Shown: positions 1,067 to 58,097 of the stretch, in pieces
Layout: every line of letters begins with the position of its first letter
Numbering within the stretch: position 1 is the first letter of the stretch
Origin: Belnapia moabensis DSM 16746
Lineage (GTDB): Bacteria > Pseudomonadota > Alphaproteobacteria > Acetobacterales > Acetobacteraceae
DNA length: 64,000 nt
Reading direction: 5' to 3'
Assembly: GCF_000745835.1 (NCBI RefSeq)
Contig: NZ_JQKB01000001.1
Location: 1 to 64,000 of the forward strand
Made by a program: the position numbers and the translations under genes
Notes under the pieces: model-generated
Told to the model about the DNA's origin: nothing
What the model saw: only the letters and a program-made list of their open reading frames with translations
Databases searched by the model: none

Positions 1067-1801
1067 TCAGATGAACCACTGCCCAGTAGCCTCGAAGTTT
1101 GCCGTAGCCTCGGACGCGATGGCATTCCAGTCGACGACGTCGTTCGGGTTCAGTCCGAGGTCGCTGACCGCCTGGAGCACGTCGGCGGCAGGTGCAACCC
1201 CTGTCAGTTCGCCGGAGGCGACTGGCAGCACCAGCTTGAAGCCAGCGGTGCCGTCAACCTCACCCTCGGTGCCCACACCCTGGTTGGCATTGGTCGTCAT
1301 GCCATGGATGACGATCTCCTTGGCCTCGAGCGGCGTGATGCCGTCGAAGATGGCCTGGGCATTCGGATCGTCCGCCGAGAAGGTGAACACCTCGTGGTAG
1401 CTCAGCTTCCCGTCCTCGCCGACGGTCGGGAATACCGCCTCGTCGGTGTGGTCATGGCCCTCAGTGCCGTGATCATGAGCGGCGTTCTCGGGGTTCAGCG
1501 TCAGGTTAAGCTGGATCGGACCATAGGTTGCCAAACCCTCGGCGAGCTCGACGAAGCCGTCGCCGTCCGTGTCCTGGGCGATGGTGGGCGACTTGGAATC
1601 GGTATCGTCAGCGAAGCCATGGATATGCTGAATGTGCATCGGCCCTGGCTCCAGGCCGCTGGCCTGGATGTCGACGGTCAGGGTCTGGGTGTTCTGATCG
1701 ACGAGCATCACCACCCGACCATCGACGCCTGAGTTGTTCAGGGCGTTGAGATCAGTCGAGTAGAGCAGCTTGCCATCTTGGACGTAGGTGTCGTGTGCCA
1801 T
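1067..1801 (-). CDS. CHRD-like protein without N-terminal signal peptide
   Basis: Protein of 244 residues. The start at 1801 follows GGGAG with six bases of spacing; a longer open frame to 2056 has no such site and reads as non-coding. The N-terminal two thirds resembles a CHRD-type beta domain, with a His cluster (MHIQHIHGF) and acidic DTDGDG, which looks like a calcium-binding loop. A second His/Asp cluster lies in the middle. There is no hydrophobic signal at the N terminus. The last 21 residues (codons at 1070-1132) closely match the last 21 residues of the GH16-like protein at 57375-58097, though the rest is unrelated, so the tail may be an export signal. Function is unknown. The protein family call is moderate, the gene call strong. 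Confidence 0.8.
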   Translation of the reverse strand: MAHDTYVQDGKLLYSTDLNALNNSGVDGRVVMLVDQNTQTLTVDIQASGLEPGPMHIQHIHGFADDTDSKSPTIAQDTDGDGFVELAEGLATYGPIQLNLTLNPENAAHDHGTEGHDHTDEAVFPTVGEDGKLSYHEVFTFSADDPNAQAIFDGITPLEAKEIVIHGMTTNANQGVGTEGEVDGTAGFKLVLPVASGELTGVAPAADVLQAVSDLGLNPNDVVDWNAIASEATANFEATGQWFI

Positions 1802-6516: not shown

Positions 6517-7161
6517 TCAGGCTGGATCCTTCCGGTTGCCCCTCGACACGATGAGCATGTCGGCATCCGGCAAGGGACGCTGTAGCTCCCTAGCAACCTC
6601 CCAGGGCGCCTCCAACCAGGTGTCCATCTCGTCGGGCGTCGTCAGCAGCACCGGCATAGCTTTCGGATGAATGGCGCCCACTGTCTCGTTCGGGTCGCAG
6701 GTCAGGAAGCCGTAGAGCTCGTGCTCCCCCTCAACTGGATCAGCCTTGGTGCCGCGAACCCCGGTCCAGGTGGTCCAAATCCCCGCGAAGGCGAACAGCG
6801 GCCTCTCTTCCGACAGCCCGAACCAGACCGGCGTCTTCTTGGGCTTGGTGTCCTCCCACTCGCTGAAGGAGGTGACCGGCACCAGGCAACGATGCGCCGG
6901 TCCGAGCCAGCGGCGCCAATGCGGGCTGCGAGTGTTGCGGATGTTGGTCACAGGGTGCCCGCCATACTGCTCCGGCCCCGGCATGCCCCAGCGCATCATG
7001 GTGAGCTCACGCTCGCCGTCCTCAGCTTGCCGCACCACAGGGGCCATGCTGTCGGGATAGATGGCGGGCAGCGGCGGCAGGTTGCCGGTGCTGTCGCGTG
7101 TGGCCCGGGTGAGCCCCATGATCGCGCGCTGGTTACTGGTCACGCTGTAGAGATTGCACAT
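6517..7161 (-). CDS. SOS response-associated peptidase (SRAP, YedK/HMCES family)
   Basis: DNA-damage protein of 214 residues that forms a covalent thiazolidine link to abasic sites in single-stranded DNA, shielding them. The catalytic Cys2 directly follows the initiator Met (MCNLYS). Other family features are RWGMPGP, the conserved NIRN strand, SFSEWED with the active-site Glu, and AIHPKAMP with the active-site His. Length is normal for the family. The gene starts ten bases after the stop of the 71-residue gene upstream, so the two are probably co-transcribed. No LexA box was recognised upstream of the pair. Confidence 0.95.
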   Translation of the reverse strand: MCNLYSVTSNQRAIMGLTRATRDSTGNLPPLPAIYPDSMAPVVRQAEDGERELTMMRWGMPGPEQYGGHPVTNIRNTRSPHWRRWLGPAHRCLVPVTSFSEWEDTKPKKTPVWFGLSEERPLFAFAGIWTTWTGVRGTKADPVEGEHELYGFLTCDPNETVGAIHPKAMPVLLTTPDEMDTWLEAPWEVARELQRPLPDADMLIVSRGNRKDPA

Positions 7162-9292: not shown

Positions 9293-10977
9293 GCGCGCGC
9301 CATCCCCTGATCGCGCGCCGCAAGCACCCCCTCGACCAGGCGCCGCAGAACCCGGAGCGAGCCGCCACGCCACGCCTGCTGGATGGCGGCGAGCTCGACC
9401 CCGTCCACCGGTGCCCCCCAGGACTGGTGCCAGCCGATGTCGTCGATCGTCCGCTTGATGATGTGGTTGGCGAGAGCCTCGGCATGCTCGACGGAGGGGG
9501 ACGGGAACCGGATGATCCGGCAGCGGTCGCGCATAGGTGCGGGGATGCCCTCCAGCGAATTCGCGGTGCTGAGCCAGATGACGTGGCTCAGGTCCACAGG
9601 CCCTTGGAGGAACGGGTCGAGCCAGCGGCATGCGCTCTCCGGCTCCAACATGCCGAGCAGGGCGTCGAGCAGGTTGCCGTTGTGCTTGCCCGTGCCGACC
9701 TTCTCAAGCTCGTCGAGGATGATGCCGGGGGCAGCCGTCCGGAAGCGTCGGGCCAAGGCCACGGGCATGCTCGGCTCGCCCGAGTGCCAGCGCCTCGGCG
9801 TGCCCGCGATTGAGGAGTCGGATGCACCGCCGCAAGGATAGATCTGGTGGCGCACGCCCAGGAGCTCGAGCAGGCGGCGCGCGAATGCCGACTTGCCGCA
9901 TCCTGGCTCTCCAACCAGGATTGTTGGCTTCAGGTGGACCGTGCCGCGTCCCTGGAGGTCGCGCAGGATGGCCTCCGCCACGCCCTCCGCGTGCGGGAAC
10001 TCGTGGATCAGGCGCCGGAGGCTGCGCGGCACTGCGTCGACGTCCAGCGTCGGGAGCGGCAAGGCCCTGCCGACGATTTCCTGCCAGGGCGCCATCGCCT
10101 CCTTGGCCTCTTTGCCGCCGGTGCCGACCTCGCGGACGAGGACGACGCTCGGCACACCAACGGCCGCCCCGCCCTCGTCACTCAGGACCTCGGCGAAGAT
10201 GGCATCGAGATCCTCGGGAACCGTGTAGTCGAGCACCCGCTTCATCGCGCCCGTGCTGCGGCGTGGCTCGCTGTCCACTTGCACGAAAGGAGCGGCGGCC
10301 GCAGGGGCTGCCGCCTCTTCCGCCCTCCGGGCCATACTGTCGTGGTATGCTAGCAGCACCTGCACGTGGGCATGCCCGGCTACCCCCGCCTTGTCGCGGA
10401 GGTCGTCCCAGCGCCCCAGTTGGTCCCTGCTGATGCCGACCGGCTTGGCGTCGGCGGAGATGGCAATCCAGCCCATCGCCCGCTCGGTCAACGCCGCGCT
10501 CTCGGCGGGCGACATGTCGTCGTCCAGAGCGAGCCGAGAGGCAAGCTGGGCAATCTGCACGCAGGCATCGGTGTCACCGAGGATGGCCGCGTAGAGGGTG
10601 GCGCGGTTGGCGCAATCCCGCGCGTCGGGGCCGCTGTAACCCCGGTTGCCGACAGCTTGGTGCAGCAGGTCGGCAGCCGCGAGGCAGGACCTGGCATCGG
10701 GGGAATGCTCGAGCCCCTGCACAGCCATCTGCACGAACAGGTCGATGTCCGCTTCCAATTTCAGACGCCGGAGCACTCGCTGGCACCAGCCGCGGATGTC
10801 GTTCAGCGCGCTGTCTTCGAAGTATGGGCTCCCGGCGATGAGTTCGCGGACGGTCGGGAGGTGGCGGCCCTTCCGGGCCGCTTGCCGGTGCCGGTCGCGG
10901 ACACGGAGATAGCGTGCGTTGGCCTCGTCGTCGTTGTGGATGCGCTTGCGCGTACGGGACGTCTGCTTCTCGAACAT
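9289..10977 (-). CDS. Lon-like AAA+ ATPase lacking a protease domain
   Basis: Protein of 562 residues. The start at 10977 follows AGGAG at good spacing; a longer frame to 11109 has no support. The first 300 or so residues are helical with no known domain. The C-terminal 230 residues form an AAA+ module close to that of Lon: Walker A GEPGCGKSA (about 356-364), Walker B GIILDELEK (about 418), sensor-1 WLSTANS and an arginine-rich MRDRCRIIRF. In true Lon a Ser/Lys S16 protease domain follows; here the chain ends, so any proteolysis would need another subunit. It overlaps the 181-residue gene by four bases. Likely functions are remodelling or DNA-associated disassembly; this is inference. Confidence 0.88.
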   Translation of the reverse strand: MFEKQTSRTRKRIHNDDEANARYLRVRDRHRQAARKGRHLPTVRELIAGSPYFEDSALNDIRGWCQRVLRRLKLEADIDLFVQMAVQGLEHSPDARSCLAAADLLHQAVGNRGYSGPDARDCANRATLYAAILGDTDACVQIAQLASRLALDDDMSPAESAALTERAMGWIAISADAKPVGISRDQLGRWDDLRDKAGVAGHAHVQVLLAYHDSMARRAEEAAAPAAAAPFVQVDSEPRRSTGAMKRVLDYTVPEDLDAIFAEVLSDEGGAAVGVPSVVLVREVGTGGKEAKEAMAPWQEIVGRALPLPTLDVDAVPRSLRRLIHEFPHAEGVAEAILRDLQGRGTVHLKPTILVGEPGCGKSAFARRLLELLGVRHQIYPCGGASDSSIAGTPRRWHSGEPSMPVALARRFRTAAPGIILDELEKVGTGKHNGNLLDALLGMLEPESACRWLDPFLQGPVDLSHVIWLSTANSLEGIPAPMRDRCRIIRFPSPSVEHAEALANHIIKRTIDDIGWHQSWGAPVDGVELAAIQQAWRGGSLRVLRRLVEGVLAARDQGMARA

Positions 10978-57374: not shown

Positions 57375-58097
57375 ATGATGATGGCAACGACTGATATCGA
57401 AACCGATGTGCCCTTCCATGAGAGCTTCGACAACCGCAACGGGGCACTGACGGACAACTGGGGCGCCGATTACTCCGTCCCCGGCCAGGTGACGCTCACC
57501 GGCAATGCCGGGATGATGGAGCCGGCGGAAGCGATCACCTCGGGCCATGGCTACGGCACCTATACGGTGACTGCGAAATTCGATGGCACCATGCCTGGGT
57601 CCGCCATCATCCTCTGGCCCGGCGACAACAACTGGCCTGGGCAGGAGATCAACCTCGCCGAGGTCGCCAATGATGGAAGCGGGCGGCAATACGCCACGCT
57701 GCACTGGAACAACAATGGCGAGGACGCCATCCGCGTGCATTTCCACGAGGGCGTCAAAGGCGGCGTGTTCCACACCTACCAGCTCGTCTGGGAACCGGGG
57801 CAACTGACTTGGCTGGTCGATGGCCAGGTGACCGCGATCGACCGCGAATATGTGCCGCGCGACTACGACCATGGCGGAATGAACAATGTCATCGGCGTGC
57901 TCAACAACAGCCCGGACACGACGCTGACGGTGACGGATGTGGATTACGTGCCGCTCGGCGGCACGCCGCCCGTTGCCTCTCCGCCGCCCGCGGCCGAGCC
58001 TGTCCCGGCGCCCGTCGCCGAGGAACCGATCGATTGGTACGCGCTCGCGGCCCAGGTGCAGGCCAATTACGAGGCAACCGGCGAGTGGTTCTTATGA
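57375..58097 (+). CDS. GH16-like glycan-binding or hydrolase protein, no N-terminal signal
   Basis: Protein of 240 residues with a GH16 (beta-glucanase) fold. Recognised segments are FHESFDNRNGALTDNWGAD, GYGTYTVTAKF, the active-site-like WPGQEINLAEV and FHTYQLVWEPGQLTWLVDG. The usual GH16 active site is ExDxxE; here it reads EINLAE, so the central Asp is Asn. After a Pro-rich linker the last 21 residues (58032-58094) match the tail of the CHRD-like protein. There is no signal peptide at the start. Three ATGs (57375, 57378, 57381) compete for the start. Catalytic activity is uncertain. Confidence 0.85.
   Translation: MMMATTDIETDVPFHESFDNRNGALTDNWGADYSVPGQVTLTGNAGMMEPAEAITSGHGYGTYTVTAKFDGTMPGSAIILWPGDNNWPGQEINLAEVANDGSGRQYATLHWNNNGEDAIRVHFHEGVKGGVFHTYQLVWEPGQLTWLVDGQVTAIDREYVPRDYDHGGMNNVIGVLNNSPDTTLTVTDVDYVPLGGTPPVASPPPAAEPVPAPVAEEPIDWYALAAQVQANYEATGEWFL

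Follow-up and report, generated by a model that had tools for sequence, protein, structure and literature searches.

A 21-residue helical tag on unrelated enzymes of Belnapia moabensis and its relatives, probably sending them out of the cell and keeping them in the sugar slime layer

The window analyzed here, i.e., the first 64,000 nucleotides of contig NZ_JQKB01000001.1 of Belnapia moabensis DSM 16746, encodes two proteins with different cargo domains that end in the same short module (Table 1). The first is a CHRD-like protein, whose Pfam match (E 1.4e-4, 23.2 bits) lies slightly under the cut-off of 24.1; the ORF list has it start at 2056, upstream of its likely start, the ATG at 1801, which has GGGAGA upstream. 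The second is a GH16 protein, whose likely start at 57375 is one of three adjacent ATGs and whose structure model matches GH16 enzymes in the PDB. Its active-site stretch, EINLAE (57645-57662), keeps both glutamates, with N in place of the D of the usual GH16 motif. The N termini of the two proteins, MAHDTYVQDGK and MMMATTDIETDV, are not signal-peptide-like by eye or in a crude hydropathy scan, in agreement with the original prediction. A viral origin of the CHRD-like protein was considered and rejected (three pattern stretches, no relative).

Table 1. Cargo proteins, linker and tail modules in the window.
Feature	Position	Strand	Basis and remarks
CHRD-like cargo protein, 244 aa	1067..1801	minus	ORF; single C-terminal module; no signal peptide seen
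CHRD protein tail module DWNAIASEATANFEATGQWFI, 21 residues, then stop at once	1070..1132	minus	genome and profile searches
GH16 cargo protein, 240 aa	57375..58097	plus	Pfam GH16 E 1.4e-8; single C-terminal module; no signal peptide seen
Pro/Ala-rich linker, GH16 domain to module	57969..58013	plus	residues 199-213, pLDDT <50
GH16 protein tail module DWYALAAQVQANYEATGEWFL, 21 residues, then stop at once	58032..58094	plus	genome and profile searches

When the two proteins are compared by BLASTP, the tail alone aligns (12/22 residues identical, E 3e-07) and the remaining two pieces have E values of 58 and 73, as expected from the claim that the likeness is confined to the tail. The codons differ at 7 of the 12 identical residues, which had also been predicted, and the bases match at 43 of 63 positions. 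The window has 429 stop-terminated ORFs with a length of 80 aa or more; when all of them are compared in pairs, this pair ranks first, with 12 matches in the last 21 residues. However, the runner-up, an unrelated pair whose similarity is compositional, reaches 11/21, so that identity within the window is not decisive alone; it is the genome-wide search that decides that the tail is real. With a single 21-residue query, this search found 14 tail copies in nine proteins of the genome (E 1.2e-9 to 4.3e-4), five of the nine carrying two copies. By profile the same 14 copies were found at E <= 4.6e-11, the profile being partly built from them.

The consensus of the tail is DWNALAAQVTANFEATGxWF[LIV]. 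All 31 aligned copies have D1, W2, N12, G17, and W19; across 91 distinct terminal copies this remains true of W2 and W19, and D1, N12, and G17 are kept in 89 to 90. In the GH16 model, a 15-residue helix spans residues 221-235, the last two blocks having a mean pLDDT of 90 and 89, and the linker ahead of it has low confidence. The CHRD model also has a helix at the tail, at low confidence (mean pLDDT 43), and was not relied on. The module is thus modeled as a short helix, which would start at D-W and end before T-G-x-W. It is absent from the family libraries searched: no Pfam or NCBIfam model lies over the tail in the proteins scanned, and a PDB sequence search over the tail returned just two cytochrome b5 sequences (10 residues, E 1). 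Similarly, the tail is not described, among the matches listed, in the titles or abstract starts of open-access literature on secretion or exopolysaccharide in Acetobacteraceae, Roseomonas, or Belnapia, or on non-RTX C-terminal signals, a sequence motif itself not being text-searchable. A longer, weaker variant of about 35 residues, read by eye as roughly DWxxIxxxVxxYHxATGxWxxYDxIxAxxW, occurs in linkers or N termini of the module-bearing proteins L028 (G004), L049 (G022), L090 (G232), and L212.

With a profile of 31 copies, tails were found in 24 of the 397 genomes of the window's family, representing 9 of its 102 genera; an earlier single-sequence search matched none of 24 genomes of other families. 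A pattern search was run over 84,980 species with a strict degenerate DNA pattern, in which G or C is fixed at most third positions, so that low-GC relatives would be missed. All 24 stretches that it returned come from Acetobacteraceae-type records, under the names Belnapia, Paeniroseomonas, Craurococcus, Roseomonas, Acetobacteraceae or Rhodospirillales bacterium; the two Rhodospirillales bacterium assemblies (G022 and G190) are members of the window's family. By the searches made, the module occurs in one bacterial family only. In the NCBI taxonomy, Paeniroseomonas and Craurococcus belong to Acetobacteraceae and Belnapia to Roseomonadaceae, all within Acetobacterales. The original prediction had been staked on a tail that recurs in related genomes and on two proteins that are unlike outside it, and both were found.

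From the matches whose flanks were fetched, a part of those of the family profile search, 115 tailed ORFs were collected, including two genes twice (L026/L048 and L059/L145). Once the modules were masked, these ORFs fell into 26 BLASTP groups, single linkage merging GH16, CBM60, and other proteins in one group of 61. The cargoes recognized by Pfam are CHRD (just under the cut-off), GH16, GDPD, 5'-nucleotidase, alkaline phosphatase, CBM60, GH5 with CBM2, phosphoesterase, phytase-like with exonuclease/phosphatase, and RTX; several tailed cargoes have no Pfam match. In four genomes of genus g16 (L088, L093, L147, L153), two tailed genes of the GH16-containing group adjoin, and both tails of each pair end in H-L rather than F-I.

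No Sec signal peptide was seen on these cargoes: 101 of the 102 tailed ORFs scored in a crude hydropathy scan stayed below 2.0 (13 were not scored). In a control, the scan gave at least 2.0 in 9/12 GDPD homologues with a signal by eye and in 0/5 others. Regular GGxGxDxUx nonapeptides of the RTX type occur in 7/115 tailed ORFs, and more than one solely in L079. This protein and L100 match PF00353, for which no match was found in the seven proteins scanned of the nine tailed ones in the genome of the window.

Homologues of the cargoes differ from them in domains and termini. The tailed 5'-nucleotidase of the window's genome starts with MAADFSLQILHASD and has two modules at its end. Nonapeptides are absent in 4/4 tailed 5'-nucleotidases, and 7/7 outside homologues that were read to the stop, from other families of the class, carry 4 to 14 RTX nonapeptides, five of the seven with type I-like ends such as LTVADFAVA or LRSDDFSFA (the nine outside genes include two, that of G428 and a second of G576, whose reading did not reach the stop and which were excluded). 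Among 17 outside GDPD homologues, the N terminus is of Sec or lipoprotein type by eye in 12, four have no visible signal, and one lies within a protein of at least 1,528 residues that ends SSDDLWV; none of the 17 ends in the tail. The four homologues without a visible signal mean that type I export cannot be deduced from a missing signal peptide alone. In the case of CHRD, the only genome with homologues among 278 of the class is that of the window, where a paralogue without tail ends EVDAVIA. For comparison, among 43 RTX ORF ends from tailed and tail-less genomes, D[FY] stands in the last six residues in only 19 (e.g., DFLFA or DYLFS), which makes the ordinary type I end itself a loose one, and D followed by any of FYWIVL in 29.

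A candidate exporter was found in most of the genomes concerned. PrtD (TIGR01842) is present in 22/24 tail genomes vs. 104/373 others (p 4e-10), and in 19/19 vs. 94/312 when genomes are restricted to those with a completeness of 90% or more and a contamination of 5% or less; the two tail genomes without a match are 75 and 68% complete. We infer that PrtD is cognate to the tailed proteins, although its frequency in tail-less genomes counts against this explanation. The genome of the window has one PrtD at E <= 1e-100. Encoded in the same locus are HlyD, sugar transferases, a protein of the Wzy_C type, a GH5-like one, an acyltransferase, and a beta-barrel porin. In this genome the contig with prtD has no tail gene; clustering of tail genes with the exporter was not seen, and operon evidence is therefore absent.

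The neighbors of PrtD are themselves characteristic of tail genomes. Relatives of the Wzy and acyltransferase proteins flank PrtD in 8/8 tail genomes read vs. 2/24 tail-less ones; this count leaves out L217 and L219, extra exporters of G005, and five of the 24 tail-less loci (L300, L302, L305, L306, and L310) are at most 15.0 kb long, so that neighbors may be cut off. Both tail-less exceptions belong to genera with other tailed members. More generally, a close orthologue of the Wzy gene (E <= 1.6e-145, against 1.4e-59 for the following match) occurs in 17/19 tail genomes vs. 5/260 others, in a set of 279 family genomes taken as G000-G035 and G060-G302, the 19 tail genomes lying within it on that assumption. 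In the same set, PrtD occurs in 18/19 vs. 61/260, and among PrtD-positive genomes Wzy occurs in 17/18 vs. 5/61. The Wzy gene thus marks tail genomes more specifically than does PrtD. It lies less than 7 kb from PrtD in 13 of the 17 tail genomes, and on a different contig in the other four (G136, G190, G214, and G265).

Relatedness explains part of this exopolysaccharide link: the PrtD tree, whose bootstrap had not settled, places 15 of its 20 tail genomes within a single clade of 19 rows and the other five within the g119 clade of seven. In the pairs of near relatives G214 and G093, G028 and G066, and G288 and G181, tail and Wzy are both present or both absent. Against the link, Wzy is found without tails in five genomes (G125, G156, and three of genus g25), and tails are found without a Wzy match in G205, which is 78% complete.

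The position of the module within proteins was then compared. Position 21 is the last residue in 99/115 ORFs and one residue follows it in two, i.e., 101/115 in total. Among the other 14, twelve ORFs (ten genes) have an N-terminal module, and L040 and L066 continue for 27 and 17 residues. Of the ten genes, whose start codons are in some cases uncertain, one has nothing but the longer variant, at a weak 10 bits, and in another the sequence breaks off ahead of the C terminus; the eight with a clear N-terminal module and a visible C terminus have no C-terminal module. In addition, two small proteins without a Pfam match, L015 and L132, are each made up entirely of three modules and linkers, and L079 has an RTX block and an RTX-type end, LGAEDITFA, followed by a Pro-rich linker and then the tail. 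L040 is an alkaline phosphatase of the window's own genome (1791-3476, minus strand, G000:C159), and the related tailed alkaline phosphatases L101 and L119 stop at the module. L069 and L081 (G118) are near-identical N-terminally tagged GH16-like copies, distant on one contig, whose C-terminal ends differ.

Internal copies contain as much information as terminal ones (70.2 and 69.4 bits). Their pN/pS ratio of 0.15, against 0.11 for terminal copies (three cargo families), shows that they are under purifying selection. The two sets differ at position 20, which is F, Y, or H in 91/91 distinct terminal copies and D or E in 7/29 internal ones (Fisher p 3e-5, without correction for relatedness). Together, these values indicate that the core of the module is selected wherever it is placed and that its last residues matter more at a protein end.

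The closest working model that we have seen in print is the PrsDE system. As far as it is described in the parts of the sources drawn on, PrsDE of Rhizobium leguminosarum exports many substrates encoded by dispersed genes, including exopolysaccharide-cutting glycanases; the Ra/CHDL domain lies in the C-terminal region of PlyA and PlyB and at the N terminus of RapD, RapA consists of two such domains only, and RapA2 and RapD bind the exopolysaccharide (PMC9298526; PMC2275737). The tail module is seen in the same three arrangements, on partly similar cargo and in genomes with a related exporter. However, Ra/CHDL is a cadherin-like domain of 100-120 residues with a calcium-dependent beta structure, whereas the tail is an unrelated 21-residue modeled helix without a Pfam match, and its exopolysaccharide link is one of genomic association.

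In view of these three arrangements, the cargo, and the exporter, one module with two roles is proposed. It is hypothesized that a PrsDE-like exporter has substrates with a repeatable helix, which acts as an export signal when terminal and as a matrix-retention module elsewhere; we give this reading a probability of about 0.5. Export of the tailed proteins from the cytoplasm would bypass Sec and use a PrtD/HlyD type I exporter, in a similar way to Rhizobium, and this step, which co-occurrence and domain swaps support better than the others, is likely. In a terminal module, the aromatic-aliphatic end [FYH][LIV]-COOH would probably serve as the type I signal, and would replace both the RTX repeats and the terminal signal of ordinary substrates. 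Outside the cell, the most likely task of the module would be to retain enzymes, glycanases and phosphatases among them, in the exopolysaccharide that the cell itself makes, or on a partner therein; judged on its genomic association, direct binding of the module to the exopolysaccharide is a plausible role with about even chances. Such retention would account for copies that are in tandem or N-terminal, for proteins made of modules only, and for the association with one exopolysaccharide locus. A more specific version is offered tentatively: the position-independent tandem helix may be an address label for one particular exopolysaccharide, gained and lost with its Wzy locus, which would bring glycanases, phosphatases, and structural proteins into the slime, the terminal copy doubling as export signal.

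Compared with RTX substrates, the tailed proteins share the lack of a visible Sec signal, a predicted identity as extracellular enzymes, a hydrophobic C-terminal pair, and a PrtD-type exporter in the genome. They differ in having a tail that is helical in the model, repeated, and also N-terminal, and more than one regular nonapeptide is found in 1/115. In the parts of the source consulted, RTX substrates favor [FLI][VAI] at the last two positions and their C termini are reported to be helix-poor (PMC8861453). The helix modeled for the tail counts against the proposed explanation in this respect. Other short sorting elements are more distant. The choline- and glucan-binding repeats of Gram-positive bacteria are likewise short and aromatic and stand at the termini of various enzymes, and they form beta hairpins with a known ligand; they are likened to the tail module by description, not by sequence. 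PEP-CTERM and the type IX C-terminal domain are, like the tail, common C-terminal sorting elements on unrelated cargo. Both act after Sec export, and PEP-CTERM has a membrane helix. In the tailed proteins no Sec signal was seen, and the GH16 model has a helix of 15 residues, whereas the type IX domain is described, in the part of the source relied on, as a beta-sandwich (PMC4804311).

A first alternative is that the tail only anchors or binds, as Ra/CHDL does in Rap proteins, and that another signal of the cargo directs export. The tandem copies, the modules at both termini, the module-only proteins, and the Wzy association all suit this view. It is nevertheless rather unlikely, since in 101/115 ORFs the module is itself the C terminus, where type I signals are placed, and the last residues of terminal copies are under extra constraint.

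Conversely, the tail could be a plain non-RTX type I signal, with internal and N-terminal copies as leftovers of duplication or shuffling. The predominance of C-terminal modules, their constrained hydrophobic end, the tailed 5'-nucleotidases without RTX repeats, and the occurrence of PrtD in 22/24 tail genomes agree with this, but we consider it unlikely: internal copies are as conserved as terminal ones and under purifying selection, eight genes with an N-terminal module have no C-terminal one, two proteins are made of modules only, and L079 has an RTX-type end before its tail. N-terminal copies cannot be ordinary type I signals. The C-terminal signal of the original prediction stands in part. 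A shared tail on different cargoes without visible Sec signals is supported by the domain swaps and by co-occurrence with PrtD; that it is purely a C-terminal signal is contradicted by the same N-terminal, internal, module-only, and L079 cases, and by an exopolysaccharide gene that goes with the tail more specifically than does the exporter.

The original prediction had also left a choice between a type I-like and a dedicated system. PrtD co-occurrence and the domain swaps speak for the former. Recognition by a dedicated transporter or sortase of a so far unknown kind would fit a tail that no curated family covers and the extra PrtD-like exporters of some tail genomes; it is very improbable given that a single PrtD of the window's genome exceeds the family cut-off and adjoins an exopolysaccharide locus, and that the 5'-nucleotidase homologues have a type I architecture. 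Finally, chance similarity, despite the 11/21 matches reached by unrelated ORF ends in the window, and homology of the two proteins are practically untenable, the former being rejected by the 14 genome copies and the tails in 24/397 family genomes and the latter by a BLASTP alignment of the tail only.

If the proposed explanation, a terminal export signal that doubles as a retention module, is true, a very short tag serves both to export an enzyme by a type I system in the absence of RTX repeats and to fix it in the matrix. Unannotated proteins of Belnapia, Paeniroseomonas, Craurococcus, and some Roseomonas could then be recognized as matrix proteins, and the tag would provide a testable code for the sorting of biofilm enzymes and possibly a compact tool for secretion and display.

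Two further observations concern the exporter loci. In L213, two small proteins of 87 and 159 aa (minus strand, 6900-7160 and 10342-10818) without a Pfam match are encoded beside HlyD and PrtD, and relatives of the 87-aa protein are found in most PrtD loci read, tailed or not. The genome G005 has three PrtD exporters (L217, L218, and L219), two of which share only 44-46% identity with the exporter at the exopolysaccharide locus.
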